From NCBI GenBank assembly GCA_028696805.1, contig JAQVGI010000009.1, positions 1-40,434 of the forward strand: a stretch of 40,434 bases of DNA, written 5' to 3'. How positions within the stretch are numbered: the first letter of the stretch is position 1; every line of letters begins with the position of its first letter. Position numbers and translations under genes: made by a program. The DNA comes from Alphaproteobacteria bacterium. GTDB lineage: Bacteria > Pseudomonadota > Alphaproteobacteria > CAAHEQ01 > UBA3637. The notes under the pieces are model-generated. The model made no database searches, was not told where the DNA came from, and was given only the letters and a program-made list of their open reading frames with translations. Of this stretch, positions 4,208 through 25,635 are shown piece after piece.

Positions 4208-4237
4208 TTGACAATGCCGGAAAAGGCGCTGTATGAT
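4208..4237 (+). promoter_or_regulatory. Promoter of the second EGF-like gene
   Basis: TTGACA at 4208-4213, 18-bp spacer, TATGAT at 4232-4237. Flanking bases (TTGACAATG.CGGAAA) closely match the promoter at 3207. Confidence 0.75.
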
Positions 4238-4257
4238 GGGGGAAAAGGAGAGCGGCC

Positions 4258-5346: not shown

Positions 5347-5354
5347 AAAACAGC

Positions 5355-5384
5355 TTGACAACGCCGGGACAAGCGGTGTAAAGT
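5355..5384 (+). promoter_or_regulatory. Promoter of the third paralog, possibly of the downstream operon
   Basis: TTGACA at 5355-5360, 18-bp spacer, TAAAGT at 5379-5384; same layout as 3207 and 4208. Genes from 5402 to 12158 are separated by 0-22 bases and no further strong promoter is seen until about 12161, so this is the likely main start for that operon. Confidence 0.65.
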
Positions 5385-5401
5385 GGCGGAAAGGGAATAC
5401 A

Positions 5402-7630: not shown

Positions 7631-7640
7631 GGGGGTTCCA

Positions 7641-8348: not shown

Positions 8349-8360
8349 GGAGGAAAACGT

Positions 8361-9131
8361 ATGAAAAACGCATTGAAAACGGGAATCGCCCTGGCGGCTG
8401 TGCTGATGGTCTGCGCGGGCGCGGCGCACGGGATGTTGCCTATCGCGGACATGCCCAAGAGCATCGGACTGGGGATCCGCGCCGGCGGCGAGGTGGCACA
8501 GCTGCAATCCCTCAAGGAAGATACGAAAATGTACGAGGATCAGCTGGCCGTCTATGAGGAAGGCGGCAGCGGCGTGGCTTGGAGCGTCCCGACGAACCTG
8601 TACAGCTTTATCAGCGAGAACATCCTGGCGCAGCCGGACAATGTGAAGGATTTCACGTTTTCGACGTTCGTGCCGGACGCCACCGGCCAGCAGGTCAAGA
8701 AAGTCCTGACGGTGTCCGCGCCGATGACGCCGGATTTGGACGCCGCCAAGGATCTGGTGCGGGAAGAGTTCTTCGCCGCGGCCGGCGCGACGGAAGCCGA
8801 AAAGGCGGATATCCTGCTGAAACGCCAGGCATACCTGAACAAGCTGACATCGTCGATGATCGCGCTGTCGACCGGCGTGCGGACGGCGACCGCGGACGAC
8901 ATGGAAGTCATCAAAGGCAGCGGCACTTCCTCGGGCAACAACATCCTCGGGGACATCGATTTGGACAACCAGATTCTGTTCGCGCTGATCCACCTGACGG
9001 CGGCGGACGTGGCTTTCCATATCCGCCTGCTGGAATTGGAGGCGGCCGTTGCGCTGAACAACCAGCCGTTGGATTTGCTTGCGGATCCGCTGGGCGGCGG
9101 GTCGACATCTGCTGAAGAAACGACGGAATAG
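8361..9131 (+). CDS. Exported protein, VirB5/TrbJ-like candidate 3
   Basis: 256 residues; ATG 8361 with a strong AAGGAGG site. Signal peptide (MKNALKTGIALAAVLMVCAGAAHG), then MLPIADMPKSIGLGIRAGGE followed by VAQLQSLKEDTKMYEDQL. This Pro-Ile-x-Asp start plus an early Gln/Lys helix is the closest of the four to VirB5/TrbJ proteins. The rest is helical with an Ala/Glu-rich centre (REEFFAAAGATEAEKADI) and no cysteines in the mature part. It sits 12 bases after the previous gene and 9 before the next, within one transcript. Confidence 0.77.
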   Translation: MKNALKTGIALAAVLMVCAGAAHGMLPIADMPKSIGLGIRAGGEVAQLQSLKEDTKMYEDQLAVYEEGGSGVAWSVPTNLYSFISENILAQPDNVKDFTFSTFVPDATGQQVKKVLTVSAPMTPDLDAAKDLVREEFFAAAGATEAEKADILLKRQAYLNKLTSSMIALSTGVRTATADDMEVIKGSGTSSGNNILGDIDLDNQILFALIHLTAADVAFHIRLLELEAAVALNNQPLDLLADPLGGGSTSAEETTE

Positions 9132-9140
9132 GAGAGAAAA

Positions 9141-9938
9141 ATGAAAAAACTTCCTTTAATCGCGGCGGGCTCTGTGCTGGGGATATTCTTGGGGGCGCAT
9201 GTCGGATGGGGGCAGGCGGGCTGCGCGCCGACCGGCCCGTTCCTGTGCGCACCGGCGCCCGTGATCGATATCGGCGCGGGCATCATCAACACCTTCATCG
9301 TGGGGACGAAAGCCGCCGCGATCGCGGAAACGGAAAAGCAAAAGGACCTGACGGATAAAATCGTCGATCGGATGGCCGGCAATGCCGGCGGCACGATCCC
9401 CGGCCCCGTTGCGAAGGTCGATGTGCCCCAGACGGCGGGAACGGGCCTGACGACGCCGGAGACGAAAGGCATCGCGGGCAAATCCACGAAGGACGAGGGG
9501 ATCCTGGCCGAGAAGCAGAAATTCGCGGTCGGCACCGAGGGCGTCCTGGGCGGCGTCGGCGCGGACGGGCAGGTGGAGGCCGGCCGGCAGACATTCGACG
9601 CGCAGCGCAAATATGTGGATCAGGAAGCCGTCGTGGATTTCCTGGCGCGGACGTGGGTTTTGAAGACGCTGCTGGCGTCGGACGGCGAAACCGGCAGCAT
9701 CAAGACGACGGTCGAAACGCTCGAGAAGCAGCAGGCCGCCGCGCAGAATAAGAACGACGGGCTGAAGCTGAACGCGACCAACCGGCTGGCGTATAACGAG
9801 CTGCTGACATTGAAGCAGAAGCTGGCGGCGCTGCGCCTGAAAGCGCAGTCCGAATTGGCGATGAGCCGCATCCAGACGCGCGGAGAGCCGTTGAACGTTG
9901 AAGACATCGCGCCGGAAGGAACGGCGACCGAAAACTAA
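9141..9938 (+). CDS. Exported protein, VirB5/TrbJ-like candidate 4
   Basis: 265 residues; ATG 9141 after AGGAGAG. Signal peptide (MKKLPLIAAGSVLGIFLGAHVGWG), then two close cysteines (GCAPTGPFLCAPAPVIDIG) and the Pro-x-Ile-Asp block, followed by a helix with TKAAAIAETEKQKDL. The C-terminal third is predicted long helix or coiled coil (about 185-250, TVETLEKQQAAAQNKNDG to LKAQSELAMSRIQ). Size, leader and order match the three preceding genes; they appear to be an expanded family. Confidence 0.75.
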   Translation: MKKLPLIAAGSVLGIFLGAHVGWGQAGCAPTGPFLCAPAPVIDIGAGIINTFIVGTKAAAIAETEKQKDLTDKIVDRMAGNAGGTIPGPVAKVDVPQTAGTGLTTPETKGIAGKSTKDEGILAEKQKFAVGTEGVLGGVGADGQVEAGRQTFDAQRKYVDQEAVVDFLARTWVLKTLLASDGETGSIKTTVETLEKQQAAAQNKNDGLKLNATNRLAYNELLTLKQKLAALRLKAQSELAMSRIQTRGEPLNVEDIAPEGTATEN

Positions 9939-9953
9939 ACAGGGGGAGAACTT

Positions 9954-11489
9954 ATGAATAAATCAGCAATTTTACTGGGGGTCTGCGGATTTTTGCTGGC
10001 GTCCGTGCCGTCCGTCCAGGCACTGACCTTTACGAAGGTCCGGCTGCCGGAGCGTCCCGCCATTTCCGCGCGGGTCGAGCAGAATCCGCTGAAAGACGTC
10101 GTGGACGAGGCGATCGAGGTCCACAACCTGCGCAACGAATTGAAAAACATGCGGACATTCCAGGATTTGTCGGATGAGAACAAGGAAATGCTGGACGTGC
10201 AGCGCAGGAAATACAAGGAAGCCGAGGACTGCAACCTCAAGCTGCTCGACAAGCAGTTCAAGAACCCGCGCGCGGCCTGGGACAAGCTGAACAAGGAATA
10301 TCAGGCGCAGGAAGCCGTCGCCGCCCGGAAAATGCTGGAGCAAAGCGACAAGACATCGCCGGACAAAGGCGACACGGCGGCGATCTGGCGCGTCGGCCGG
10401 GATGCCTTGGTCGACCTGTATCAGAGTCCGGAAAAATACGGCGAGCTGAAAACGGGAAAGTCCGTCTTCCCCGTCTGGTCCGATCAAAAATATGTCTACC
10501 GGCAGGAGCGCGACGCGCAATACCGCCAGATCAACGCGTATTTCGGCGAGCCCGTGGCCGCGCGTCCGAAGATCGGCGAAGCGGCGCAATACGACAGCGC
10601 CGAAGTGGTGCGCGCGCATCAGGATTACCTGAAGGCGCTGGCGGCGAAATACCCCGACAAGGCGAAGAAAATGCCAAGCAATTTCGCGGCGCCCGTCGCC
10701 GTGCCGCGTCCGCTGCCGCCGCAGAATGAAATCATGAGCTTGGGCGTGAAAGACGACAAGATGACCGTGGAGGGCATGCCGGACACCTGGGAAAAAATGC
10801 TGAAAAACAAACAGGTCGAGGCCAACAAGGACGGCGAGATGGCCAAGACGTTCGACAAGGACGGCCAGCTGAAGCCGGACGCGATGGAGCGGCTGGGGCA
10901 GTCCAACCGGCTGTCGCTGTTCCACCAGACCCGGCAGCAGATGGAGGTCGCCGAGGATCTGGACAAGATCATCCAGACGGAGCAGCCCCGGATGATGTCC
11001 GATTTGCAGGGAAGCCTCGCGCCGTATTACCCGCCGATCAAGACGGCCAAGAAGCTGGACGACCGGACGCAGGCCGAGGCGCTGAAAGCGCTGGCGGAGA
11101 AGGAAAAGCAGCTGATCGCGCAGGCGCGCCAGATGATCGCCGCGAATCCGGAGCCGTCCGACGAGGAGAAAAAGCGGCAGGCCCGCATCCAGCGCGACTT
11201 GGAGGATATGAAGCATTTCGAGACGGAGCGTCCCCAGACGTATCAGGCGCTCAAATACCTCGCGGAGAAGAATCCGATAGACGCGCACAGGGAGATTCTG
11301 GACGCGCTTGAACTGGACAAGGACGCGGATGTCCCCGTCGCCCGCGGCGGCGCGGACCGCGTTGCCACCCAGCTGGAGCAGCAGAAGCAGGTCAAGGCCG
11401 AGCTCAAGGGCCGGACGACGATGCAGCCCCAGATCCAGCGGGAGCGGCTGCAGAAGCTGAACGCGGCCTGCACGAAGTGGGAGGAATGA
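9954..11489 (+). CDS. Large exported coiled-coil protein of the secretion locus
   Basis: 511 residues; ATG 9954 after AGGGGGAGAA. Signal peptide (MNKSAILLGVCGFLLASVPSVQA), then an almost wholly helical, highly charged protein. Coiled-coil-prone stretches lie at about 45-125 (VDEAIEVHNLRNELKN) and 360-430 (ALAEKEKQLIAQARQM). No enzymatic motif or membrane segment beyond the leader was recognised. It ends 3 bases before a VirB8-like gene. A structural or effector-handling role in the periplasm is possible, but this is guesswork from position. Confidence 0.75.
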   Translation: MNKSAILLGVCGFLLASVPSVQALTFTKVRLPERPAISARVEQNPLKDVVDEAIEVHNLRNELKNMRTFQDLSDENKEMLDVQRRKYKEAEDCNLKLLDKQFKNPRAAWDKLNKEYQAQEAVAARKMLEQSDKTSPDKGDTAAIWRVGRDALVDLYQSPEKYGELKTGKSVFPVWSDQKYVYRQERDAQYRQINAYFGEPVAARPKIGEAAQYDSAEVVRAHQDYLKALAAKYPDKAKKMPSNFAAPVAVPRPLPPQNEIMSLGVKDDKMTVEGMPDTWEKMLKNKQVEANKDGEMAKTFDKDGQLKPDAMERLGQSNRLSLFHQTRQQMEVAEDLDKIIQTEQPRMMSDLQGSLAPYYPPIKTAKKLDDRTQAEALKALAEKEKQLIAQARQMIAANPEPSDEEKKRQARIQRDLEDMKHFETERPQTYQALKYLAEKNPIDAHREILDALELDKDADVPVARGGADRVATQLEQQKQVKAELKGRTTMQPQIQRERLQKLNAACTKWEE

Positions 11490-11492: not shown

Positions 11493-12158
11493 TTGGTTCA
11501 CCGGGCCGTCCATCAAACCATCCGGCGTTTGTCCGACCTGTCGGCGCAAACATGGCGGGCGGCGGCGTTCGGCCTGCTTGTCCTGGCGCTGTGGCTCGGG
11601 TTCGTGCTGTATCGGACGGCGCCGCAGGTGCGCGTCGTCGGCCAGGTTTTCGTGAAGGACATCTACGCGCAGCGCGACGTGATGTATTCCGACCAGCTGC
11701 TGGAAGTCCTGCCGTTCGATGCGGACATCAATGACCGGAAGCTGATCGACGAGGCGCTCGTCCGGTATTTCATCGAGATGTATTACACGCTGTTCGTCGA
11801 CGAGCCCGAAATGACGCGCCGGTGGAGCGCCGGCGGGCCGGTTTTCCTGCTGCTGGCGCCGGATCTGTTCGCGGAGTTCTACGCCGAGAAGGCCAAGGTG
11901 CTCAAAACGCTGTCCAAGGAGGCGAGCGCGCAGAGCGTCGACATCGTCAATGTTTTCCGGACGGACAACAATTTCACCATCGACTTCGACCTGTATGCGT
12001 GGAACGGCATGAATCCGCCGCAGCGCGTCGGGAAATCCCTGGTCCTGACGATCGCCTACGTGCCGGGGCGCCGCGTCTACGGGCTGAATTTTTCCAATCC
12101 CTACGGCGTGACGATCGTCCGGATGTCCGAGACTGAAAAAAAAGACAGCCAGATTTAA
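11493..12158 (+). CDS. VirB8-like inner-membrane protein 1
   Basis: 221 residues from TTG 11493; GGGAGGA upstream supports this start and no ATG fits. A short cytoplasmic N-terminus, one membrane helix at about 25-42 (AAFGLLVLALWLGFVLY), then a periplasmic domain of about 165 residues of NTF2-like size ending in FSNPYGVTIV. This is equivalent to the 'NP.G..V' ending of VirB8 proteins and of the second VirB8 homolog downstream. VirB8 dimers bridge the inner-membrane complex and the VirB9/B10 core in type IV secretion. Divergent; assigned from topology, the ending and neighbours. Confidence 0.7.
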   Translation: MVHRAVHQTIRRLSDLSAQTWRAAAFGLLVLALWLGFVLYRTAPQVRVVGQVFVKDIYAQRDVMYSDQLLEVLPFDADINDRKLIDEALVRYFIEMYYTLFVDEPEMTRRWSAGGPVFLLLAPDLFAEFYAEKAKVLKTLSKEASAQSVDIVNVFRTDNNFTIDFDLYAWNGMNPPQRVGKSLVLTIAYVPGRRVYGLNFSNPYGVTIVRMSETEKKDSQI

Positions 12159-12412: not shown

Positions 12413-12438
12413 ACGGATGATGAAGCAAAGGGTTGCGG

Positions 12439-13134
12439 ATGCCGACACGCGCTCAAGATAAAACAAGCCAGCCGCGGGAAGACGACGTTTCCCAGGAAGC
12501 CGTGAAAGAACGCAGCTACCTGTGGATGATGCGCGTTTTCGCGATTGTCAGCCTGATCGCCGTCGTCGTGAACCTGTTCGTGTTCGGCGCGCTGGTGGCG
12601 CTGACGCCGATCGTGCGCGTCCAGCCGTTCTACCTGTTCGCGCTGAACAAGAACCAGCAGACGATTTTCCTGGCGCGGCCGGCGCCCGAAGTGCTGCAAT
12701 CCAAGGATTTGCAGGAGGCGTTCGTGCGGCAGTATCTGCTGGCCTACTTCACGATCGGATCGAACATCGCCGAGCAGGAGCGCCGCTGGGGGCCGGAGGG
12801 CATGGTGGATTGGATGAGCACGCCGGCGGTGTTCAGCGAGTTCACCAAGAGCGCGAATTACCTGATCGACCTGGCGCGCACGGAAGGGCTGGTGCGCGGC
12901 GCCCGCATTCTGGTCGCCAACGAATACAAGCGCTCGACGCGCGGCGTCATCTGGACGGCGGAGGTCGAGACGAAGGACATGAAGCGGGATTCATCGACGC
13001 CCGACCTGACCGTGTGGGCCGTCCAGATAGAGATTTCGTTCCAGCCGCGGCAGCGGGGCCTGACCTGGGCGCAGCGGTTGAAGAATCCGCTGGGCTTCAC
13101 GGTGTCCGGCTTCGGCGCGCAGCGGAAAACATAA
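12439..13134 (+). CDS. virB8: VirB8-like inner-membrane protein 2
   Basis: 231 residues from ATG 12439, which has AAGGG 6 bases upstream; an in-frame TTG at 12433 overlaps that site. A cytoplasmic N-terminus with acidic/basic residues, a membrane helix at about 32-55 (VFAIVSLIAVVVNLFVFGAL), then an NTF2-like periplasmic domain (ALTPIVRVQPFYLFAL, FVRQYLLAYFTIGSNI, RRWGPEGMVDWMSTP) and the VirB8 ending KNPLGFTVSGFGAQRK. This is the more canonical of the two VirB8 homologs. Having two, separated by the lipoprotein, suggests a hetero-oligomeric ring or separate sub-complexes. Confidence 0.82.
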   Translation: MPTRAQDKTSQPREDDVSQEAVKERSYLWMMRVFAIVSLIAVVVNLFVFGALVALTPIVRVQPFYLFALNKNQQTIFLARPAPEVLQSKDLQEAFVRQYLLAYFTIGSNIAEQERRWGPEGMVDWMSTPAVFSEFTKSANYLIDLARTEGLVRGARILVANEYKRSTRGVIWTAEVETKDMKRDSSTPDLTVWAVQIEISFQPRQRGLTWAQRLKNPLGFTVSGFGAQRKT

Positions 13135-13204: not shown

Positions 13205-14740
13205 ATGATGTGGACAATGAAAGGCAGGATGGGAATCGCGGTGCTGGCGCTGCTGGCCGCGTTCGCGGTGCGGGCGCAGCAGCCGCTGCCGGAGGATACC
13301 GAGGCGGGGCAGCTGCAGGACGCGATCGCGCAGTCGTCCGGCGAGTACGACGAGATGAACCTGGGATACATCCAGTCGCTTGGCATGCAGCAGAAGGCGT
13401 GGAACAACCCGATGGCGCACCTGGGCGAGGGGCAGACGAAGCCCGGATATTCGCGCTACACATGGACGCCGGACGTCGTGCTGCCGATCCGCGTGCGCGA
13501 GGGGATGATGACGCTGGTCAACATGCCGACATGGGAGCTGATTGAAAAAGTCCACATCGGATCGCCGGAATCGTTCGGCGGCGAAATCGCGGCGCCCAAC
13601 TCGCTGCTGGTGTATGCCGACCCGTCCTACATCGGCGTCGACAGCAACATGATCATCTTCGGCCGGTCGGGCAACCGGTATGTGTTCTACCTGCGCAGCG
13701 AAGTCTACAACACCGACAAGATCACGCAGAATGTCGTCGACGTGCTGGTGCCGCCGAAATACACGCCGGCGGAAGACGGCGGGCAGCTGGCGGACATGAA
13801 CGGCGCTTCCGTCCGGATGGACACGGCTCCGGCCGTTTCCGGCAATGCGCCGGGGTGGGCCGGCGGCGGCCGGCAGAATCCGACGATCGGCCTGAACACC
13901 GCGTCGACCGGGCCGCAGAACTGGATGCAGTCCATTCCGGTGGATCCCGAATCCTTCCGCTTTGACATCGACATGTATATCCCGAACCCGGCGGATGTCG
14001 ACATTGCGCCGGACAGTGTCTGGCGCGACAACATCTTCACCTACATCGACCTGGGGCCGAAAGCGCTGACGATGGTGCAGCGGCCGATCGTCAACCTGCT
14101 GGTGCAGGACACCGAGGTGCCCGTCGGATTCCGTACGCGCGGCCCGAACAGCCGCCTGATCGTCGTCGAGGGCATCGGCGACATGGTGCTGCGCAACGGC
14201 AAGAAAATCATCTGTCTGAAATTGCGCCGCGATCCGGCGATGGGGCTGGATTCCACGGATTACAGCGGGTCAAAGAATCTGCCGCCGAAGGTGCCTTACC
14301 GGACGGTGACGCAGGCCGGGTCGGCTTACCAGGCTGTCGGCGGGGCGGGCATTCCCGTCGTGCCGCGCGTGATGACCGACTGCCCGCGCGCGGTCGGCAA
14401 CTGCTCGGAAGCGGTCGCCGGCATCAACGAGGTGGTGATGGGCCTGTCGACCGGCGGCAAGACGACGACGCCGAACCTGACCGAGGTGGTGTCCGTCGAA
14501 TTGGGCGCGCTGGCCAGCATTTCGGATCTTGAATCGCTGTGGAGCAAAGTGTATGCGAAGAACCAGGACGTCCTGAAAGGATACGAGCCGTTCTACTCGC
14601 TGGACACGACGGCGGACGGCGACATGAAGGACTTGTTCCGCCTGCGCATCGGGCCGATGACGGATGTCCAGACGGCCGACGCCGTCTGCACCAAGCTGGG
14701 CCGGCGCGGGTTCACGTGCTCGGTCATACGCGTGCAGTAA
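13205..14740 (+). CDS. virB9: VirB9-like outer-core protein with C-terminal SPOR-like domain
   Basis: 511 residues, about twice a normal VirB9. ATG 13205 follows AAGGAG. Signal peptide (MGIAVLALLAAFAVRAQ). VirB9 N-terminal domain at about 75-190 (SRYTWTPDVVLPIRVREGMM, then NMPTWELIEKVHIGSPESF), a Gly/Pro-rich linker, and the VirB9 C-terminal domain at about 260-345 (PDSVWRDNIFTYIDLG, VPVGFRTRGPNSRLIVVEG, MVLRNGKKIICL). The tail (about 455-511) carries a SPOR-like pattern: LFRLRIGPMTDVQTADAVC followed by KLGRRGFTCSVIRVQ. SPOR domains bind denuded septal peptidoglycan, so this subunit could tether the channel to the wall. VirB9 with VirB7 and VirB10 forms the outer-membrane ring. Confidence 0.82.
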   Translation: MMWTMKGRMGIAVLALLAAFAVRAQQPLPEDTEAGQLQDAIAQSSGEYDEMNLGYIQSLGMQQKAWNNPMAHLGEGQTKPGYSRYTWTPDVVLPIRVREGMMTLVNMPTWELIEKVHIGSPESFGGEIAAPNSLLVYADPSYIGVDSNMIIFGRSGNRYVFYLRSEVYNTDKITQNVVDVLVPPKYTPAEDGGQLADMNGASVRMDTAPAVSGNAPGWAGGGRQNPTIGLNTASTGPQNWMQSIPVDPESFRFDIDMYIPNPADVDIAPDSVWRDNIFTYIDLGPKALTMVQRPIVNLLVQDTEVPVGFRTRGPNSRLIVVEGIGDMVLRNGKKIICLKLRRDPAMGLDSTDYSGSKNLPPKVPYRTVTQAGSAYQAVGGAGIPVVPRVMTDCPRAVGNCSEAVAGINEVVMGLSTGGKTTTPNLTEVVSVELGALASISDLESLWSKVYAKNQDVLKGYEPFYSLDTTADGDMKDLFRLRIGPMTDVQTADAVCTKLGRRGFTCSVIRVQ

Positions 14741-14754
14741 GCTGAAGGTGTCCG

Positions 14755-17700
14755 ATGCAAGAACAAAGAGCCAGCTCGTCCGAACAGTATATCAAGAAAA
14801 CCAATCGGAATATGATTCTGATCGGTGTCGGGGTGCTGCTGCTTCTGCTGCTGGTTTTGTTCCTGCTGCCGGAGAAGCAGGCGGAGATAGAGCCCGACAC
14901 GCCGATCATCGGCACGAACGAGCTGGGGCCCCTGTCCGACGCGCCGACCGCGGGCATGGGCATCGGCACGCTGGTCGTGACGCCGGCGCAGATCGCGATG
15001 GAAAAAGTCGTGCTGGGATCGAAGGCCGAGGCCATCGTCACGCTGACGGCCAAGGACGGCGACATCCTGGTGCTGGGCGCCGAGCTGGCGGAGAAGCAGG
15101 AGGACGGGTTCGAGTTCGAGACGACCTGCCCGCTGGACGGCGCGATTCTGTCGGGGCAGACGTGCCTGATGAAAATACACTGGACGCCGGCGGCGCTGCG
15201 CCAGCTGCAGAACATGCTGGTCATCCGGTGGCACGAGCGCGATGTCGCCGCGGTCAAGGATGAAAAGACGATCATCCAGCTGAAAGGCCAGTCGACGGAT
15301 TCCAAAGACTGCGTCATCTGCGAAAACGTGGCGGCCGCGAAAAAGCCGCGCGTCGTGATGCGCCTCGACGGCGCGCTGTATGACGCCGAGGACGACACCT
15401 CCGTCATCATCGACGGGCAGAAATACAAAATAACCGAAAACAACGTCGTCGTCGACGAAAACAAGAAAATCATCGCCGTCGCGGTGCCGAAGCGGATTCC
15501 GGTCGGGCTGGACGGCAAAGTGCTGGGCAACGTGTCGGACGCCGGCGAGGTCATCTCGGACGTCGGGGAGAAGCTGGGGCGCGCGCTGGACGACGGGACG
15601 ATCGTCGACGCGTCTTTGAAGGTGCTGGGCGCCGCGCTGCCGATCGTGTCCGTGATGGACGAAACCGGCCGCGTCATCGGCAAGATGAAATCGGACGGGA
15701 CGATCGTCGATGAAACCGGCGGCGTCATCGGGCGCCCGCTGGCGGACGGCAGCGTCGTCGGCCTGAACGGCGTCGCGCTGGGCGTTCTGAGCCCGTGGGG
15801 CTTGGCGATCGATTTGAACGGCGCGCTGATGGGCGGCGTCCTGCCCGACGGCAGCGTGCGGAATATCAAGGGGCAGACGCTCGGCGCCGTGCGCCCGAAC
15901 GGCTTTATCGTTTCGACGCAGGGCGAGTTCCTGGGCGGCGTCATCCCGGCCGGCGTCGGCGTCGCGAGTGGGTGCCAGTCCGTCGGCGTCGTCGCGCTGA
16001 ACGGCGAGGTGCGCAACACGTTCAACCAGCTGGTCGGCCGCGTGCTGCTGGACGGGTCCGTCGTTTCCGAAAACGGCAAGGACATCGGCGTGGCGGTCCG
16101 CCAGGGCCTGGTCGTCAGCGACAAGGCCGTCGTCGGATTTGTCAATTCGGAAGGCAAGGCCGTCGACGCGAAGGGCCATGTGATCGGGTGCGTGAATCCC
16201 GACGAGGCCGTCGTGGCCGACAAGAAAGCCGTCGGCGCCGTGCTGGCGCGCGGGCGCGTTGTCGGGCAGAAATGCTCGGTGCTGGGGTCGGTTTATCCGG
16301 ACGCGCAGGCGCGCAACCCCGCCGGCGAGATCGTCGGGCGCGTGCTGCCGGACAAGTATGTTGCTGACAAGGGGAAAATCATCGGCGCCGTCGTGCCGCG
16401 CGGCGGCGCGATCGCGGACGGGTGCCGGTTCTTGGGGCTGATCGCGCTGAACGGCCAGGTGATAGACGCTTTCGGCGCGCGGGTCGGGTGCGTGACGCCC
16501 GAAAAGACGATTGTGGATGACAAGGGCGGCGTCATCGGCGGCGTTTCCATCCGCGGGCTGGCTTTCGACAACGCCGGCAAAGTCCTGGGCCGCGTCCGGA
16601 TGGACGGCAAGGTCATCGACGCGTCCGGCAAAATCATCGGCTGCGTCGATCCGGACGGGAACGTGACGGATTTGAAAGGCAACCCGATCGGCCGTGTCGG
16701 CCAGCAGACGCCGGGCGGCTTCCAAACGCCGATCGGCGATGTGTTCGCCCGGACGAACGAGGCGGGCGTCATCGAGGAGGTCATCATTCCGGACGGCGTC
16801 GTCGTGTCGAACGACGGGCTGATCCTGGGCCGGTATTCGTCCGCGAACGGATATGCGCTGGACGCGAAGGGGGAGCGGTTCGCGAGCGTCCTGCCCGATC
16901 TGACGGCCGTTGCCGGCGACAAGACGAAAATCGTCGGCGCGCTGATCCCCGACCAGTCGACATTCATGGATGATTCCGGCAAATACCTGGGCATGATGCA
17001 GGTCGACGGCCGCCTGGTCGACGCGCAGGGCGCGGTCATCGGCGCGATCCGCGCGGACGGCACGCTGATCGACAAGGACAACAAAATCATCGGGTATAAG
17101 ATCCCGCGCGGCAACGTGTTTTCCGCCGCGGGGCAGATGGTCGGCTTCGTCGACGCCCGGGGCGCCGTGAGCGGCCCGGACAAGACGAAGGTCGGCCGCG
17201 TGCTGGCGAACGGGCTGGCCGTGTCGGACAACAACCAGATTCTCGGCGGCGTTTTCCCCGCGATCGGCGTCCCGATCGGGCCGGACGGCGTTCTGGGCGG
17301 CATGACGCCGTATGGCGAGGTCAAGGATGCGTCCGGGCGCAAGGTCGGCGCGTTCACGCCGTTCGGGCTGATCTGGGCGAACGACGGCAAGGCGATCGGG
17401 CGGCTGGTCAAAATCGGTGCCGTCGTGAACGCGAAGGGGAATCTGGTCGCGCAGCATACGCTGAAAGGCTTGGTCCTGAACGCGGACGATGTGCCGGTGG
17501 GGCGGCTGACGACATCGGGGACGGCTTTCACGAAGGACGGCGTCCTGTTGGGGCGCGTCGTGCCGCGGGCGCCCGTCGTCGACGCCGCGGGGCGGTTCGT
17601 TTCATACACGGCGCCGGATGCGCGGGTCATGACGGACAACAAGCCGGCGGGCATCGTCGGCGTGTCGGGATATGTCTTCACCGAGCAGAATGGCATTGCG

Positions 17701-20700
17701 GGGCGGATGCTGCCGCCGGGCGCGGCGGTGGACGCGCTGGGGATGTTTTTGGGATGGACGCAGTCGGACGGCCGCATCGGCGCCGGCGCGTCGTCCGCCG
17801 GCTTTGTGGGTCTGGACAACCGCGTCGTCGACGCGGGCGGCGAGATCATCGGATTCTACGCGCCGCTGGGCGCCGCGGCGTTCAACGATGCGGGCCAGAC
17901 GATCGGGGCGGTCGGGACGGACGGCTCCGTGATGTCGTTCAAGAATGCGCGCGCCGGCCTGGTCGCGGCCGGGAACCTGGTCGTTTCGGACGGGCAGATC
18001 GTCGGGCGGATGACGGATGACGCCGTGTTGGCCAACGATTATGCGCAGGGGCAGACGCTGGCCGAAATGAACGGCGCCGGCGAGTTGTTCATGGACGGCA
18101 CGACGCGGCTCTACGGGTCGGCGATGACGAACGGGCTGGCGCTGAACCAAGTCAAGAAAGCGATGGGCGCCGTCGTTCCGACGGGACTGGCCGTCGCGAG
18201 CAATCTGGCTATTTTGGGGGAAAGCAGCCTGAACGGCGTCGTGCTGGCCGCCGACAAGGCGATCGGCGATGTGCTGGGCAACGGCGCGGTGCTGAACGCG
18301 CAGGGGATGATTCTGGGCGGCATCCTGCCGCCGGCGACATTCGTCAACCGCTCCGGCGAAGTGGCGGCGCGCAGCGCGGGCAAAACGGAAATCGTCGGAA
18401 AATCCGGCGTCAAGCTGGGATCGCACATGCCGTTCGGATCCTTGCTGACGGTGGACAACACCTGGGGCGGCCATGCGCTGAGAACGGGGATGGCCGTCGA
18501 TGATTTCGGTGCGCCCGTCGGCATCGCGGCCGCGAACGGATTGGTGTTGAGCAAGGCGGGGACGCTGGTCGGGCGCCTGCTGCCGGACGGAGGCGTCGCC
18601 GGCGTGGCGGCGCGCGAGACTTTCTCGCCGATGCCCTACATCGGGCGTCTGGCGCAGCAGGGCCTGCCCGTCGGGTACAAGGGCAACGTGCTCGGCCGGA
18701 CGACGATGAACGGCGACGTGTGGGACGAAGCCGACAAGGCCGTCGCGCGCGTGCTGGACGACGGGACGCTGCTGGCCGGCGGCGACATGGCCGGCGCCGT
18801 CGTGCGGTTCGGGACGGCGGTGTCGTGGGCGGGGCAGTATCTGGGCTCGGTGAACGGGGACGGGCAAGTCTTGTCCGCGGAAGGCCGCCCGATGGGGTCG
18901 GCCGCGACCAACGACGCGATCAAGGAAAGCCAGCTGAAAATCGTCGGGCAGGTCGCGCCCGAAAACCTGGTCGTCAACGACTGCAAGGTGCTGGGGCAGC
19001 CGAACTGGACGGCGCAGGTCATCAATGCGGCGGGGGACACCGTCGGCCGCGTCCAGAACAGCGGGTGGGCCGTGGATTCCTACGGCAACCGCGTCGGGCG
19101 GCTGGTGCGGCAGGGGCCCGTGATGTCGCCGACTGGGGAGTATCTGGGCCGCGTTTTGTCGGATTCCCGCATTGCAGACGCCGCCGGAACGGATGTCGGC
19201 TGCGTCAGGAACGACGGCGTCGCCGTCGACAATCTGGGCAAGGTCTTGGGCGCTTTGGTCGAGCGCGGGCCGGTTATCAGCCGCGCCGGCGCGATCGTCG
19301 GCCGCGTGACGAAGGACGGCGCCGTCATCGGCCGGACCGGAACGCCGGTCGGGCGCGCGCTGGGCGACGGCAAGGCGACGGCCGCGGACATGGAGGGCAA
19401 ACTGCTGGGGCGGATCGTGCCGCGCGACGAGGAGCTGATCTACGATTCCGTCGGCGGCGCCCTTTCCGGCACGTTGAGCCGCGGCGGCGAGTTCCGGAAC
19501 CTGGCCGGGGAAGTGATTTTCATGGTCAACGAAAACGGCGAGCCGATGGATCCGCTGGGCAACAAGCTGTGCTATTCGGGCGGGGACGTCACGCTGATGC
19601 GCGGCATGCAGGGCGAAACGCTGGGCATCATCTCCGACTGCGCCGTGCTGAACGCGACGACATGCGAGAAGATCGCGACGATCCAATCGGACGGCCGGAT
19701 CATCGACCTGAACAACGCCGTCTATGCGGTCGTCGCCGGAACGAAGCTGATTTCCGACAAGGGCAAGGATCTGGGCGATATCGTCGGCACGAGCGTGTCG
19801 CTGGAAAAATGCGGCGTCCGGCCGGGAAGCCGCGCGCCCGAGGACACGCCGTCCCTGCCCGGCCGCAAGATCAGGCTGGGCGACGGCAAGCTGTATGATG
19901 TCGTCGGCCAGTCCATCGTCGATCCCGAAACGGGCGAGATCAAAGGCTATATCGGCCCGGACGGCCAGCCCAAGGATTTGGATGAAGCGCTGATGAAGAA
20001 AGTGCCGCAGACGCCGATCGCCACGCCGTCGCAGCCGCCCGTCGTGCCGCCGATACCGGAGGCCACGCCGGCGGAAAAGCAGATTTCGAACGCGCTGCTC
20101 GGCGCGAAACGCGACGCGATGAAGCGCAACAAGGATTTCAGCCGCATCCAGCCCGGCGCCGCGATCTTGGCCAAAATCCGCAAGCGGAAGCAGAAGGATT
20201 GGGGCAAGCCCGTCGCGCGCATCGTGTCGACATGGCCCGTCGACATGTCCCGCGTCGTGCTGAAAGACAAGGCGATTCCGGCCGTCCTGGCGCACTCGAT
20301 CGATTCGCGGTTCACGAATGTGCCGGCGTCGGCGATCGTCGAGCGGAACGTTTATTCCGAGCACGGGCGCAACATCATCATTCCGGCGGGCAGCCGCCTG
20401 ATCGGGACGGCGCAGGAGGGCGCCGGCCAGGATAAGGTCGCCAAGCTGCAGATCACATGGCAGCGGCTGATCCGGCCGGACGGCGCGGCGTTCATATTCG
20501 AGGCGACGTCGGGCGACGCGCAGGGCCGCGGCGGCATTGCGGCCTACCTGGACGAGGAGCTGGTCAAGAAATACGGGCTGCCGCTGCTGTCGACGACCGT
20601 CACCTCGGCCATCAGCTATATGATGGCGACCAACCAGGATTTGCAGACGACCGAAAGCGGCACGGTGGTTCAATCGGCGCGGTCGCAGGCGGCCGCGGAC

Positions 20701-21261
20701 GCCCGCCAGAACTTCATCGATTCGATGGGCAAGATCTTCCAGCAGCTGCTGGATGAGGCCAAGATCATTCCGCCGGTCGTCTATGTGCCGTCCGGCACGC
20801 GGATGACGGTTTATGCGAACGAGGATTTGTGGCTGCGGAACGATTATGAAGACGAGCGCGAGTTCTTGGAATCGCAGGGCGGCGGCACCGGCGGCGGAGG
20901 TGGCGGCGGCGACGGCGGCGACGGCGTTGTCGGCAGCGATGCGGCCATTTTCAACGGGGAAGAGGATGGCATCGCCGATGCGGAGGGCGGCGCGGGGACG
21001 GAGGGCGGTACGGGAACGGAGGCCGGCGCCGGAGGAGGAACACCGGCCGGGACGGGATCCGGAACAAAACCCGGAACGCAGGAAGGCAGCAAGGCGACCG
21101 AAACAGCGGGCTCTTTCGTCGGCGGGCAGACTCAGGGCGACATAGCCAATAAGCTGGAAGACGCGCTGCCGTCTCCGAAAGGCGCGGGCGCCGTGGCGTC
21201 GTATGATCCGTCGGTGGATATGAAAAACCTCGAAGGCCGCATTGCGGAGCCGATTTTCTAG
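14755..21261 (+). CDS. virB10: Giant VirB10/DotG-type core protein with about 80 glycine-rich repeats
   Basis: 2168 residues (VirB10 is usually about 400; Legionella DotG about 1050). ATG 14755 after GAAGGTG. Order: cytoplasmic N-terminus; one membrane helix at about 20-39 (MILIGVGVLLLLLLVLFLLP); an Ig-like domain at about 68-180 with a Cys pair (FETTCPLDGAILSGQTCLMK); from about 222 to 1740 a 17-residue repeat of the form 'xxxGxxxGxVxPDGxVx' (for example DETGGVIGRPLADGSVV, NIKGQTLGAVRPNGFIV); a linker; the TrbI/VirB10 domain at about 1840-2020 (SRFTNVPASAIVERNVYSE, NIIIPAGSRLIGTAQE, PLLSTTVTSAISYMM); VPSGTRMTVYANEDLWL; a Gly/Thr-rich tail. VirB10 spans both membranes and transmits ATPase energy to the channel. 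The repeat rod probably spans or pads the periplasm. No frameshift is visible. Confidence 0.92.
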   Translation: MQEQRASSSEQYIKKTNRNMILIGVGVLLLLLLVLFLLPEKQAEIEPDTPIIGTNELGPLSDAPTAGMGIGTLVVTPAQIAMEKVVLGSKAEAIVTLTAKDGDILVLGAELAEKQEDGFEFETTCPLDGAILSGQTCLMKIHWTPAALRQLQNMLVIRWHERDVAAVKDEKTIIQLKGQSTDSKDCVICENVAAAKKPRVVMRLDGALYDAEDDTSVIIDGQKYKITENNVVVDENKKIIAVAVPKRIPVGLDGKVLGNVSDAGEVISDVGEKLGRALDDGTIVDASLKVLGAALPIVSVMDETGRVIGKMKSDGTIVDETGGVIGRPLADGSVVGLNGVALGVLSPWGLAIDLNGALMGGVLPDGSVRNIKGQTLGAVRPNGFIVSTQGEFLGGVIPAGVGVASGCQSVGVVALNGEVRNTFNQLVGRVLLDGSVVSENGKDIGVAVRQGLVVSDKAVVGFVNSEGKAVDAKGHVIGCVNPDEAVVADKKAVGAVLARGRVVGQKCSVLGSVYPDAQARNPAGEIVGRVLPDKYVADKGKIIGAVVPRGGAIADGCRFLGLIALNGQVIDAFGARVGCVTPEKTIVDDKGGVIGGVSIRGLAFDNAGKVLGRVRMDGKVIDASGKIIGCVDPDGNVTDLKGNPIGRVGQQTPGGFQTPIGDVFARTNEAGVIEEVIIPDGVVVSNDGLILGRYSSANGYALDAKGERFASVLPDLTAVAGDKTKIVGALIPDQSTFMDDSGKYLGMMQVDGRLVDAQGAVIGAIRADGTLIDKDNKIIGYKIPRGNVFSAAGQMVGFVDARGAVSGPDKTKVGRVLANGLAVSDNNQILGGVFPAIGVPIGPDGVLGGMTPYGEVKDASGRKVGAFTPFGLIWANDGKAIGRLVKIGAVVNAKGNLVAQHTLKGLVLNADDVPVGRLTTSGTAFTKDGVLLGRVVPRAPVVDAAGRFVSYTAPDARVMTDNKPAGIVGVSGYVFTEQNGIAGRMLPPGAAVDALGMFLGWTQSDGRIGAGASSAGFVGLDNRVVDAGGEIIGFYAPLGAAAFNDAGQTIGAVGTDGSVMSFKNARAGLVAAGNLVVSDGQIVGRMTDDAVLANDYAQGQTLAEMNGAGELFMDGTTRLYGSAMTNGLALNQVKKAMGAVVPTGLAVASNLAILGESSLNGVVLAADKAIGDVLGNGAVLNAQGMILGGILPPATFVNRSGEVAARSAGKTEIVGKSGVKLGSHMPFGSLLTVDNTWGGHALRTGMAVDDFGAPVGIAAANGLVLSKAGTLVGRLLPDGGVAGVAARETFSPMPYIGRLAQQGLPVGYKGNVLGRTTMNGDVWDEADKAVARVLDDGTLLAGGDMAGAVVRFGTAVSWAGQYLGSVNGDGQVLSAEGRPMGSAATNDAIKESQLKIVGQVAPENLVVNDCKVLGQPNWTAQVINAAGDTVGRVQNSGWAVDSYGNRVGRLVRQGPVMSPTGEYLGRVLSDSRIADAAGTDVGCVRNDGVAVDNLGKVLGALVERGPVISRAGAIVGRVTKDGAVIGRTGTPVGRALGDGKATAADMEGKLLGRIVPRDEELIYDSVGGALSGTLSRGGEFRNLAGEVIFMVNENGEPMDPLGNKLCYSGGDVTLMRGMQGETLGIISDCAVLNATTCEKIATIQSDGRIIDLNNAVYAVVAGTKLISDKGKDLGDIVGTSVSLEKCGVRPGSRAPEDTPSLPGRKIRLGDGKLYDVVGQSIVDPETGEIKGYIGPDGQPKDLDEALMKKVPQTPIATPSQPPVVPPIPEATPAEKQISNALLGAKRDAMKRNKDFSRIQPGAAILAKIRKRKQKDWGKPVARIVSTWPVDMSRVVLKDKAIPAVLAHSIDSRFTNVPASAIVERNVYSEHGRNIIIPAGSRLIGTAQEGAGQDKVAKLQITWQRLIRPDGAAFIFEATSGDAQGRGGIAAYLDEELVKKYGLPLLSTTVTSAISYMMATNQDLQTTESGTVVQSARSQAAADARQNFIDSMGKIFQQLLDEAKIIPPVVYVPSGTRMTVYANEDLWLRNDYEDEREFLESQGGGTGGGGGGGDGGDGVVGSDAAIFNGEEDGIADAEGGAGTEGGTGTEAGAGGGTPAGTGSGTKPGTQEGSKATETAGSFVGGQTQGDIANKLEDALPSPKGAGAVASYDPSVDMKNLEGRIAEPIF

Positions 21262-21270: not shown

Positions 21271-22260
21271 ATGGCGGAATTGCCTATTTCAGATACCTAC
21301 CGCGTTTTGGAGTCCGTGATCCGGCCGCTGGCGTATTGGTACAATCAGGAAAACGTCGAGGAAATCGCCATCAACAGCCCGGGCGGCATCTGGCTGCGCG
21401 TGCGGGGCAAGCATGCGTATCCGTGGCATTTCCACGAAGACCCGAAGCTGACGCGCGAGTATTTGAACAACCTGCTCTATGTTATCGCGAACACGTTCGA
21501 CCTGGCGTTCGATCCGGTCGGCGGAACACCGGTCGTGTATGCGACGTTGCCGGGCGGGCACCGGTTCTCGGGCATCTCCGGCCGCAACGTGATGTATGAC
21601 AACGGCGACCTGACCGGCGGCGTCGCGATGGCGGTGCGCGTGTTCAAGGACGACGTCGCCGTCGACATGTCGCAGTTCGGCCTGGTCCAGGGCGGGCGGC
21701 TGCGCCCGATCAACAAATTGAAGAGCGTCGAGGATCCCGACGATCCCTACGACCGGCTCGTCCTGTCCATCAAGCGGGGGGACCATATCCTGATCAGCGG
21801 CGCGACCGCGACCGGCAAGACGACTTTCCTGAACAACATCATCAAGCTGCTGGACGAGCACAAGCGCATCCTGACCATCGAGGACACGCGCGAGCTGATC
21901 GTGCCGCATCCGAACCGGGTGCACATCGTGCTGCCGCGGACGGAGCTGACGAACGCGTTCGACTACCGGCGGGTGATCGACCTGGCGGTGCGGTTCACGC
22001 CCGACTGCATCATCGGCGGCGAGATTTCGACGTCGAACGCCGGCGCGATCTGGGAGCTGATGGGATCGGGGCATGACAACTGCTTCGCGACGATCCATGC
22101 CGAGAGCCCCGAGGCCGCCTACAAGGCGTTCGTCGGGCGCATCCTGCACACGTATCCGTCGACGGACAGGGAAAAGACTTTGAAGGAAATGAAGGACAAG
22201 CTGCGCGTCGTGCAGATCAACCGCGACGGCAACATCCGCGCCGTGACCGAGATCACCTGA
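21271..22260 (+). CDS. virB11: VirB11-type secretion ATPase
   Basis: 329 residues, normal for VirB11; ATG 21271 after AGGAG. Cytoplasmic hexameric ATPase that powers assembly and transport in type IV secretion. An N-terminal domain of about 150 residues (VEEIAINSPGGIWLRVRG is the family's substrate-side motif), then the RecA-like domain: Walker A GATATGKT at 177-184, TIEDTRELIVPHPNRVHIV (Asp box), Walker B-like DCIIGGE at 245-251 and the His box SGHDNCFATIHAES. VirB11 proteins normally have Arg after GE(V/L/I); here it is Ser, a small oddity. It closes the secretion operon; the next gene has its own promoter. Confidence 0.93.
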   Translation: MAELPISDTYRVLESVIRPLAYWYNQENVEEIAINSPGGIWLRVRGKHAYPWHFHEDPKLTREYLNNLLYVIANTFDLAFDPVGGTPVVYATLPGGHRFSGISGRNVMYDNGDLTGGVAMAVRVFKDDVAVDMSQFGLVQGGRLRPINKLKSVEDPDDPYDRLVLSIKRGDHILISGATATGKTTFLNNIIKLLDEHKRILTIEDTRELIVPHPNRVHIVLPRTELTNAFDYRRVIDLAVRFTPDCIIGGEISTSNAGAIWELMGSGHDNCFATIHAESPEAAYKAFVGRILHTYPSTDREKTLKEMKDKLRVVQINRDGNIRAVTEIT

Positions 22261-22318: not shown

Positions 22319-22344
22319 AAGGCAAGATGACGAAGGGGGAGTGT

Positions 22345-25300
22345 TTGGAACGGAATTGCAAGCGCATGCATCGGGAACGCGGCCGCACCATGATCGAGAT
22401 GCTGGCGGTGCTGGGCATCATCGCGCTGGTTTCCATCGCCGGCATCACCGGATACCGCGCGGTGATCAGCCGGTACCGCGCCAACCAGACGATTTCTGAA
22501 ATCGGCTCGCGCGCGGCCGTCGGCGCGTCCCAGCTGCGGATGGGGCAGGAGCTGAACGACGCCGAATTCGGCGCCAGGACGGGCATGGGATATGCCGCCC
22601 GGTTCGAAACGGGGCCGGACGCCCGCGGGTTCGACGTCGTCCTGTCGGGCGTCCCGGCGGATATCTGCGCGCGCATCGTCGACGCGGGCTGGAATGCGCC
22701 GCTGGCCGTGTATGTCGGGACGGATGAGGCCGAAGTTTCATCGGGCGGTCGGGAGGAAGCTGACGCGGCGGATATCTGCGCGGAAAAAGCGGACGCCGGC
22801 GGCCTGGTGGCGATGGCGTTTTTATTTGAAGGCAACAAGAGCGGCAGCGCCGTGAGCTATGTCCGGTGCGCGGACAGCTGGGACTGCGCCGCGGCCGACT
22901 GCTGCTTCCGGGGGGCGTGCGTGCCGCGCGCGGACGGCGCATGCGACGACGATTCGGACGATGATGACACGCCGCCGCCCGACGCGGGATGCCCGGCGGG
23001 AACGCAAAAGGTCGGCAATCTGTGCGTGAAGATCGTCTGTCCGCAGAATCAGGAGCTTGTCGGCAGCACCTGCGTGGATTGTCCGCCCGAACGGCCCGTC
23101 TGGACGGACGGCAAATGCTACGCGTCCGGCGGCGGGGGCGGAGAGTGCCCGGACGGCCAGCGGAAAGTAGGCGGCGCCTGCTGTATCGCGAAATATGACG
23201 GCATTTTGAAAAAATGGGTATGCTGCGCCGGGGATTTGGTGCCCGTCAATACCGGGACGCCGGGCTATGTGTGCTGCGGCAGCGGGCAGCAGGCCGTCGA
23301 CGGGACGTGCTGCGAGGCGCCTGACAAGCTGGCGGCGCTGGTTTATGGCGGCACCGGGTGGAAATGCTGCGCGTCCGGCGCCGCGAGACGGAATGAGTCC
23401 GGTGAGACGGAATGCTGCGCGGTCGGCGAGTGGGCGACGCGCAAGAACGACGGCATAACCGCCTATATGTGCTGCCCGGTCGGCCAACATGCGTCGAGCG
23501 GCGTTTGCTGCCCGACGGACAAGCCCGCCGTCGTGACGGATCCGGCGGTTCTTAAAAAGATTTGCTGTCCGGCCGGATCGGGCGGAGCGGCGAACGGGAC
23601 ATGCTGCCCGGCCGGCCAGCACGGCGTGCGGGACGCCGCTGCGGCGAATACATGGCAATGCTGTCCGCAAGCGTCCGGTTCCGCCGCGTCCGGCCAATGC
23701 TGCCCGAGCGGGAAAAACGCGTCCGCGACGGAAGGCCAGGCCCGCTGCTGCCAGCCCGGCGAAACCCTCCGGAATGTCGACGGGGAATACCTGTGCTGCG
23801 CGCAAGACGGCGGGCAATGGAAATGCAATTCATGCGCGACGGATCCGCTGAAAGACTCTGCCGGCGACTGCCATCTCTGCGATGCGGTCGAGAGTGTCGA
23901 CGTGTCCTGGAATCCGAATGCCTGTCTGGCATGCGGGAGTCACAGGACATTATTCCGGCATGACGGGATCTGGTGGTGCGGCCTGCGGTCGTGTCCGGCG
24001 GATAAGCCGTTGCAGGACAAGAGCGGCGATTGTTTTTCGTGCGCCGCATCGGAACCGATCGACACAAATAATTGCGCCGTTTGCCCCGGGCGCGTCATGC
24101 AGGATGGCATGTGCAAGCCGGCTTGTCCGGAAGGCCAGTTTTGGAGCACGTACGGAGCCTGCTATTCGTGCGACGAGCCAATCGATGTCCCATCCACGGC
24201 TGCGCAGTGCGCCCTGTGTCCGCAACGCGAGAGGTCAGGCTACGATAGATGTGTGCTGACAACCTGTCCGGACAATAAACCTTTGAGAGATTTGGGCGGT
24301 TCTATGTCAGCAACAACATATTCCACATATATCAAAGGATGCTATGCATGTGGTGACGGACGTTCCATCACAACGTATGAGTCGGAGTGTCAGACGTGTG
24401 GCAATCGTCAATGGAATCTCAGCGGTTGGCCGAGCGGTGGTCCGGGGCTGTGTACGTTGAGTTGTTTGGAAGGGGAGGGAATATGGGACGTAGCAGATCT
24501 CAACAAGAATCCATATTGCAGGTCTTGCAATTATCAACAAATAATTCTCATGGACGATAATGCGGGATGGGGATCTTATTCTTCGCAAAGCGCCGCGCAA
24601 TCCGCCTGCGAAGCATGCGGCCGTTATTTTATTACAAAATCTGAACCATACTGCTGCGGAGTGAGTGGTGGCGTATGTGTACAAGAGTGCACCCAAACGA
24701 CTTTTATCTGCTCTTTGACGCCCTGTTCCACGTGTGGAGATAACTGGGGATGCTCCGAGAATACATTCCCCGTTGTTAAAGACGGGAGGGACGACTATCT
24801 GCAATGCCGCTCCTGTGATGAGCCTCTGTTGTTGGGGGAGGACGGGGACTGCTCCTCATGCCCCGCGGGAAAAAGGAATGAGGATTGCTCGTTGAAAACG
24901 TGCGCCGCCGGCACATATAATCCGAATTCGCAATACAATGCGCCGCCGTGTGTCGCGTGCCCGGCCAATGTGTCCGGTCTGACGGAAACGTTATGCACCA
25001 GCTGCGGCCGTTGGTATAACGACGCCTGTTGTCCGGCATTCAGCGCGCTGACCACGGCGGCGTCGTGCGCGGCCTGCGGCGGATATTGGGAGGGAGGTGC
25101 GTGTTTGGCCGATTGTCCGACGGCGCTGGATACGCTGACCACGGATGAAACATGCTGGCTGTGCGGCGGGGATTGGGAAGACGGCGCATGCGGATGTCCG
25201 CCATTGGATGCGTTGTTCTCGGCCGCATCCTGCGAGTATTGCGGCGGGCATTGGTTTAATGGTGCGTGTTTGGCAAGCTGTCCGTCGAAGTTGTTTGTTC

Positions 25301-25635
25301 CGACAACGGCCGCATCGTGTGCAGGTTGCGGCGGCAATTGGACCGGAACCTCCTGTTGCCCGCCGGCGCAGATAACCTTAACCACACCTATTTCATGTGC
25401 GGTTTGCGGCGGAAGTTGGATCTATGACCCAAATGCTGAAGGATATATTTGTTGCCCCGTGCCGCTGGCGGTGGAGACGTTGACTACAGCCTTCTCATGC
25501 TATATATGTGGTGGTTATTGGGTTAAAAGTGGCGCGTGTTTGGAAAATTGTCCGGCAGATATTACAACGTTGGGTATAATAGGATCATGCTATGATTGCG
25601 GCGGAGTTTGGGATTCTTGGTATGGGTGTTCTTAA
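22345..25635 (+). CDS. Giant Cys-rich protein with type IV pilin-like N-terminus
   Basis: 1096 residues from TTG 22345, chosen because GGGGAG lies 3 bases upstream; ATG 22327 lies only 9 bases after the -10 box and would be nearly leaderless, but cannot be excluded. N-terminus: basic leader, then a class III-type hydrophobic helix (GRTMIEMLAVLGIIALVSI), as in pilins and pseudopilins (Glu at +5-like position). Then a globular part to about 165, an Asp-rich spacer, and roughly 120 cysteines in three repeat types: 14 CC pairs (about 270-490, 'W.CCP.G....G.CCP'); C-x2-C pairs (about 495-860); and eight 'SC..CGG.W..G.C...CP....LTT' units (about 870-1096). Probably an exported, heavily disulfide-linked fibre or adhesin. 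The segments at about 24230-24800 and 25380-25620 are AT-richer than the rest, suggesting mosaic origin. Confidence 0.85.
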   Translation: MERNCKRMHRERGRTMIEMLAVLGIIALVSIAGITGYRAVISRYRANQTISEIGSRAAVGASQLRMGQELNDAEFGARTGMGYAARFETGPDARGFDVVLSGVPADICARIVDAGWNAPLAVYVGTDEAEVSSGGREEADAADICAEKADAGGLVAMAFLFEGNKSGSAVSYVRCADSWDCAAADCCFRGACVPRADGACDDDSDDDDTPPPDAGCPAGTQKVGNLCVKIVCPQNQELVGSTCVDCPPERPVWTDGKCYASGGGGGECPDGQRKVGGACCIAKYDGILKKWVCCAGDLVPVNTGTPGYVCCGSGQQAVDGTCCEAPDKLAALVYGGTGWKCCASGAARRNESGETECCAVGEWATRKNDGITAYMCCPVGQHASSGVCCPTDKPAVVTDPAVLKKICCPAGSGGAANGTCCPAGQHGVRDAAAANTWQCCPQASGSAASGQCCPSGKNASATEGQARCCQPGETLRNVDGEYLCCAQDGGQWKCNSCATDPLKDSAGDCHLCDAVESVDVSWNPNACLACGSHRTLFRHDGIWWCGLRSCPADKPLQDKSGDCFSCAASEPIDTNNCAVCPGRVMQDGMCKPACPEGQFWSTYGACYSCDEPIDVPSTAAQCALCPQRERSGYDRCVLTTCPDNKPLRDLGGSMSATTYSTYIKGCYACGDGRSITTYESECQTCGNRQWNLSGWPSGGPGLCTLSCLEGEGIWDVADLNKNPYCRSCNYQQIILMDDNAGWGSYSSQSAAQSACEACGRYFITKSEPYCCGVSGGVCVQECTQTTFICSLTPCSTCGDNWGCSENTFPVVKDGRDDYLQCRSCDEPLLLGEDGDCSSCPAGKRNEDCSLKTCAAGTYNPNSQYNAPPCVACPANVSGLTETLCTSCGRWYNDACCPAFSALTTAASCAACGGYWEGGACLADCPTALDTLTTDETCWLCGGDWEDGACGCPPLDALFSAASCEYCGGHWFNGACLASCPSKLFVPTTAASCAGCGGNWTGTSCCPPAQITLTTPISCAVCGGSWIYDPNAEGYICCPVPLAVETLTTAFSCYICGGYWVKSGACLENCPADITTLGIIGSCYDCGGVWDSWYGCS

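Follow-up and report, generated by a model that had tools for sequence, protein, structure and literature searches.

According to a recent review, VirB10 is the only known subunit bridging both complexes of its secretion machine (PMC12857230). The closest described homologues with repeat insertions are CagY and DotG. Helicobacter pylori CagY is a giant VirB10 with a large central, cysteine-containing repeat region, encoded by direct DNA repeats that recombine; the repeat module is alpha-helical (PMC2581425) and lies between two membrane segments (PMC5954226). In Legionella, the VirB10 homologue DotG carries pentapeptide repeats that have been assigned to the periplasmic stalk (PMC7511231). Here, we describe a VirB10-like gene (positions 14755 to 21261, plus strand) in a 40,434-nucleotide stretch of an alphaproteobacterial genome (assembly GCA_028696805.1, contig JAQVGI010000009.1), hereafter the window. 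Its 2168-amino-acid product carries a long array of 17-amino-acid repeats, which probably forms a rigid, disulfide-braced periplasmic strut between the membrane anchor and the proline-rich/TrbI outer-membrane part of the protein. Unlike the CagY repeats, this array is predicted to be beta-structured, is diverged and is collinear across species. It would occupy a position like that of the DotG repeats, but differs from DotG in that its 17-residue units, or petals, are ordered in triplets and in that the other genes of the locus are VirB-type rather than Dot/Icm.

The array is regular over residues 224 to 1549 (15424 to 19401, plus strand) and continues as looser, irregular units over residues 1550 to 1747 (19402 to 19995, plus strand). 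Amino acid autocorrelation over residues 222 to 1740 peaked at a lag of 17 (0.182 versus 0.082 in shuffled sequence, z = 15), followed by lags of 34 (z = 11.6) and 51 (z = 10.7). A profile parse returned 81 units, one of them spurious (residues 78 to 94), and hence about 80 units of 17 amino acids with the consensus GRVLPDGLVVDADGKVL. The Pfam family PF21785 (Bflower_2) matched 12 stretches of the array (E = 4e-64; 213.9 bits versus a cut-off of 38), and PF21784, the 4-fold beta-flower, scored just above its cut-off. Open reading frame (ORF), autocorrelation, profile parse and Pfam thus agree with the original prediction of a 2168-residue VirB10 with about 80 seventeen-residue repeats between its helix/immunoglobulin (Ig)-like part and TrbI. 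Tandem Repeats Finder detected no clean tandem array in the DNA of the window virB10, and the direct-repeat copies are only about 60 to 84% alike; the repeat signal therefore resides at the protein level and is old.

Three features missed in that earlier reading, and new here, are the order of the units in triplets, their pairing through cysteines and the splitting of the gene in relatives. After removal of the shared consensus, unit-to-unit likeness was positive at offsets +3, +6, +9, and +12 (z = 6.4, 4.6, 5.9, and 3.0), and all remaining offsets through +11 were negative (+5, z = -2.2). The excess at +3 was found separately in relatives with a single-chain (fused) VirB10 and in the A and B proteins of a sister clade in which VirB10 is split between two genes, and in a phase-free parse +3 outscored every other lag for 107 of 132 proteins. 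The three phases follow each other in order over residues 224 to 1549 of the window protein, yielding 25 triplets of about 51 amino acids from residue 241 onward; the three-phase model located 74 units plus a 36-residue gap equal to two units. Across 136 related proteins, 574 of the 721 unit spacings of 18 to 21 amino acids (80%) fell at the boundary from phase 2 to phase 0. Mean-field coupling analysis of 1126 to 1508 windows drawn from related repeats showed mutual coupling at position 8 among the three units within a triplet, independently of the start phase; coupling of this position across triplets was absent from the top pairs, and unit pairs at offset 3 coupled above a row-shuffle null. 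The triplet phasing of units and spacings makes it likely that one triplet represents one structural layer.

The strongest coupled pair by far (z = 27 to 32) connects position 13 of phase 0 with position 1 of phase 2 five units on. In the 136 related proteins, one or the other of the two positions holds 515 of 551 array cysteines, and a partner five units away was present in 243 of 246 cases. The regular array of the window protein has eight cysteines, all of which fall into four such pairs, the predicted staples C407-C479 (15973 to 16191), C507-C579 (16273 to 16491), C557-C630 (16423 to 16644), and C1410-C1483 (18982 to 19203; all plus strand). This pattern suggests disulfide staples joining successive triplets, and the genome carries a DsbA-type domain.

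A beta-solenoid or rod had been proposed for the repeats. AlphaFold2, run with 30 to 31 orthologs on two overlapping pieces, predicted an all-beta structure for the whole array, with two short strands in each 17-residue unit and no disordered stretch within the regular part. Mean predicted local distance difference test (pLDDT) and predicted template modeling (pTM) scores were 86.0 and 0.77 for residues 60 to 1140 and 80.5 and 0.65 for residues 1000 to 2040, with pLDDT mostly 85 to 95 in the regular array. These models support an ordered, rod-like beta structure. A classical parallel beta-solenoid is not supported, as the listed fold matches in the PDB include no solved solenoid and the profile kinship of the array is to the hairpin-repeat beta-flower and RHS/YD families. 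Foldseek returned no credible global match to the array from the PDB, the match to fascin having a probability of only 0.1, and a search of a viral fold library gave nothing informative. The array is a repeat fold without a good solved counterpart among the matches found.

In the most serious competitor of a continuous rod, the petals would close into independent 5-fold (or 4-fold) beta-flower barrels, strung together as a flexible or sticky linker that possibly binds lipids or glycans. The beta-flower families PF21784 to PF21786 (clan CL0395, with Tubby) share with the array short beta-hairpin petals and a [DNEQ]xxG tip motif, and the Pfam matches given above speak for such beads. The beta-flower family also occurs in small free-standing proteins elsewhere, and beta-flowers resemble lipid-binding Tubby domains (PMC10584680). 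However, the forms described in that work are closed barrels of four, five, or six petals comprising about 100 amino acids, whereas the array is uninterrupted, without regular linkers every four to six units in the unit parse of the window protein, and its three-phase order is unbroken. Core couplings are limited to triplets, the cysteine pairs keep a fixed three-phase pattern, and a pTM of 0.77 across 1081 amino acids is high for loose beads. Sequence period and couplings, rather than viewed coordinates, argue for three-fold organization and against a closed five-petal barrel, with likeness at five units negative. Since unit likeness has a period of three and not five, five-fold beads were rejected as the main interpretation, and we consider a string of barrels unlikely.

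A further line of evidence for the rod comes from the VirB10s in the genome-contig set of relatives, which fall into two size classes. Members of the shorter class are encoded by the downstream gene of an adjacent pair, A followed by B (loci L079 to L141; e.g., L086:2896-6336 and 6338-11050, and L163:2451-5876 and 5879-10594). A proteins (1044 to 1737 amino acids; one 506-residue match was excluded) comprise a membrane anchor, an ASH-region N terminus and repeats but no TrbI domain, and B proteins (1377 to 2101 amino acids) a Sec signal peptide, repeats and TrbI. Anchor and TrbI thus reside on two separate chains in this clade, whereas the inner-membrane helix and TrbI share one chain in the window protein and in all complete fused relatives. 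All 45 A proteins end 13 amino acids past a phase-2 unit, in an invariant tail with the consensus GYxLxEVAxNRRN. Likewise, all 45 B proteins begin at phase 0, following a signal peptide with an AxA-type site, and their mature N terminus is conserved (EITAIDFNGDxxGKVI, of EITAIDFNG type). VirB10 is therefore split exactly at a triplet boundary, phase 2/phase 0, at 45 of 45 loci. We rejected a sequencing error in view of the recurrence of signal peptides and invariant ends at 45 loci of metagenome-assembled genomes. Fused proteins contain no trace of the A tail or the B start motif, and profile alignment located the corresponding break in the fused protein only ambiguously, since every repeat matches every other.

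Split versus fused was a single change on both the TrbI and the VirB11 trees (Shimodaira-Hasegawa-like approximate likelihood ratio test support 97 and 91, respectively), with the repeat-less VirB10s of L143 to L145 scored as fused and seven loci scored as split by signal peptide or manual inspection alone. Ordinary VirB10 outgroups group with the fused side, although long outgroup branches leave the root less than certain; one fission is thus the simplest reading. No split VirB10 was found among the papers listed, by title and abstract, in a search of the open literature, which is weak evidence of absence. It is conceivable that A is an independent, repurposed protein and that B alone acts as VirB10, considering that A lacks TrbI and that its invariant tail could bind a different partner. 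However, A and B are adjacent at the 45 loci (gaps of -59 to +19 base pairs [bp], mostly 0 to 4) and lie between virB9 and virB11 where examined, and the break is always phase 2/phase 0. Repurposing of A therefore appears doubtful.

Copy number across relatives also bears on the function of the array. The arrays of 22 full orthologs align collinearly at about 45% identity, and hardly any deletions fall within residues 241 to 1560. Length changes cluster near residues 610 to 660 and 1561 to 1740, and the irregular repeats are the main length-variable zone, with insertions of up to 165 amino acids. Pairs of fused proteins with 54 to 96% identity showed no indels of at least 8 amino acids in the core array. 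Array indels are commoner in the split clade than in the fused lineage. The split A gene of L111 (3137 to 4462) carries 8.3 copies of a 159-bp unit at 86% identity, a recent amplification of one triplet, and L131 contains a 153-bp tandem of 1.9 copies. These tandems indicate that the duplicated unit in the split clade is one triplet. A strict rule of 51-residue multiples did not hold for indels in general, with only 2 of 16 large indels lying within 2 amino acids of such a multiple.

The original prediction had likened the repeats to those of CagY and supposed that their copy number could vary by recombination. In this scenario, the array would be a surface-exposed repeat recombining to tune secretion and escape immunity. 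The analogy holds insofar as the protein is a VirB10 with a repeat insert, here from a gut bacterium, and some relatives show array indels or, in L111, the 159-bp tandem. It fails on fold and recombination: the repeats of the window lineage are diverged in DNA and orthologous unit by unit, with collinear cores free of indels, and recombining in-frame DNA repeats of the CagY type were not found there. Moreover, the CagY repeats are helical and lie between two membrane segments, in contrast to the beta array and single segment here. We therefore rejected a recombination-tuned CagY analogue for the window lineage and retain recombination-varied copy number for some relatives; as an explanation of the array as a whole, it is very improbable.

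Least probable of all, by a small step, is a spiral hairpin shell of RHS/YD type (as in teneurin and Tc toxins) around a cargo instead of a solid strut. Relatives gave RHS_repeat profile hits at E = 1e-17 to 1e-21, and teneurin ranked first by E-value in Foldseek (3.7e-17). However, the likeness is confined to the hairpin unit, with no common global shape (template modeling score 0.06 to 0.09, root-mean-square deviation 32 Å), and the second AlphaFold2 model (residues 1000 to 2040) gave no such match; a layer of three units would also have no room for a cavity.

Our favored interpretation remains that a rigid strut arose by enlargement of the stretch linking the inner-membrane anchor to the proline-rich/TrbI part. 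We infer that it lies in the periplasm, that its disulfides are formed and that it has the shape of a long rod, built continuously from two-strand 17-residue petals. Three petals (about 51 amino acids) would form one layer and layer n would stack on layer n+1, with unit i on unit i+3, contacts that, like the beta fold itself, are model predictions. Disulfides from unit i to unit i+5 would staple successive layers. Volume arithmetic (51 amino acids per layer, width of 2.5 to 3 nm) gives about 1 to 1.4 nm per layer and thus an estimated 25 to 35 nm for 25 layers. Arranged in several copies about the axis of secretion, the strut might provide a long connector of fixed length that joins the membranes and relays position and signal from the motor in the inner membrane to the channel in the outer one. 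In the sister clade, one gene fission together with a new Sec signal peptide would have divided the strut exactly between two layers, and the A and B halves presumably dock end to end via the A tail and the B N terminus. A stapled, collinear array of nearly fixed length is more in keeping with a spacer than with a variable adhesin.

Several observations weigh against this model. The three-per-turn geometry derives from sequence period and couplings, not from a viewed model, and the couplings were obtained by a mean-field approach on windows taken from related repeats. The best Pfam family for the array, PF21785, is described as 5-fold. No match to DsbB was detected in the genome. One fused relative (G034, locus L061; 1273 amino acids) is a naturally short form with only about 34 units and no cysteine pairs, and some close orthologs differ in length, mostly at residues 1560 to 1740, so that the array cannot be said to have a strictly constant length. 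That A and B dock end to end is a suggestion drawn from their invariant ends.

The chances are about even that the array constitutes a new beta architecture, that is, disulfide-stapled three-petal beta-flower layers in a periplasm-spanning strut of tens of nanometers, and that the two-piece VirB10 exemplifies replacement of the covalent link between the membranes, regarded as peculiar to VirB10, by end-to-end docking of two rods. The split implies that the covalent link of VirB10 from inner to outer membrane is dispensable, and calls into question whether both membranes must be connected by one unbroken protein. With VirB10 naturally cut precisely at a structural boundary and the resulting ends conserved, the need for covalent continuity becomes directly testable, and the array offers a way to infer periplasmic spacing from gene length.

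Apart from the array, the window protein resembles members of the VirB10/TrbI family such as ComB10, TrwE, and Xanthomonas citri VirB10 in its N-terminal membrane helix, its proline-rich stretch, its C-terminal TrbI beta domain with two predicted 30-residue antenna helices, and the position of its gene between virB9 and virB11. It differs from them in the stapled beta array of about 1500 amino acids between anchor and TrbI, the ASH domain, and the gene split in the sister clade. The gene, an ORF from ATG to stop, is the only one in the genome with a TrbI domain. The membrane helix is a hydrophobic stretch at about residues 20 to 38 (14812 to 14868; these and the following features are on the plus strand) within an N terminus alignable with all fused orthologs. 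It is followed by the ASH/PapD-like (Ig-like) domain at about residues 73 to 180 (14971 to 15294; Pfam ASH, 73 to 157), with Foldseek matches to HYDIN, CEP192, MSP, and PapD-like domains, and by a nearly invariant CxxC motif, C186-V-I-C189 (15310 to 15321; columns C127/C130 of alignment A2). Beyond the array, a proline-rich linker and a helix predicted with low pLDDT (19996 to 20256) precede TrbI (residues 1835 to 2027, 20257 to 20835; PF03743, E = 6e-33, 114.8 bits versus a cut-off of 35). The TrbI part matched VirB10, ComB10, CagY, and the Dot/Icm dome in Foldseek (6gyb, 2bhv, 3jqo, and, for the dome, 9ngw_A). The NCBIfam VirB10 model scored 104.7, under its cut-off of 220; by domain and gene context, the protein is a VirB10. 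Its Gly/Ser/Thr-rich C-terminal tail (20872 to 21258) is unconserved (10 to 12% identity among orthologs). On the minus strand, two long ORFs cross the repeat gene (14593 to 17457, 954 amino acids; 17602 to 20673, 1023 amino acids); they are probably a by-product of GC-rich codon usage and have no support, family evidence for them not having been sought.

The cluster has the order virB8-virB8-virB9(SPOR)-virB10-virB11, all on the plus strand. It encodes two VirB8-like proteins (11493 to 12158, Pfam VirB8 E = 4e-7; 12433 to 13134, E = 1e-11), a VirB9-like CagX protein (13205 to 14740; CagX E = 3e-11) with a C-terminal SPOR domain (E = 4e-6), and a VirB11-like ATPase (21271 to 22260; Pfam T2SSE, TIGR02788 E = 4e-40). 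The combination of VirB9/CagX with a C-terminal SPOR domain, which is of peptidoglycan-binding type, recurs in relatives (L162:842-2371, L163:687-2441) and may tether the machine to the cell wall. VirB4 (contig C38), VirD4 (C15), and a TrbL/VirB6-like protein (C17) are encoded by single copies on contigs of the same genome (G000) apart from the virB8-virB11 cluster. A relaxase of family PF03432 was absent from this genome (0.96 Mb, 98% complete), other MOB families not being searched, and defence-system annotation of the neighboring genes returned nothing. All named relatives, "Azospirillum sp. CAG:239" among them, are metagenome-assembled Alphaproteobacteria, and most come from guts, such as those of ruminants and rabbits; we take them to belong to the GTDB order RF32.

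Directly after virB11, positions 22327 to 25635 encode a cysteine-rich protein of 1102 amino acids with a type IV prepilin-like N terminus (TMIEMLAVLGII). Five unassigned proteins with signal-peptide-like N termini are encoded just upstream of the virB8 genes (6953 to 11489) and are candidates for VirB5-like or surface parts. Further upstream (3235 to 6952) lie the genes of three consecutive secreted proteins with a common C-terminal region, two of which contain epidermal growth factor (EGF)-like repeats, unusual in bacteria.

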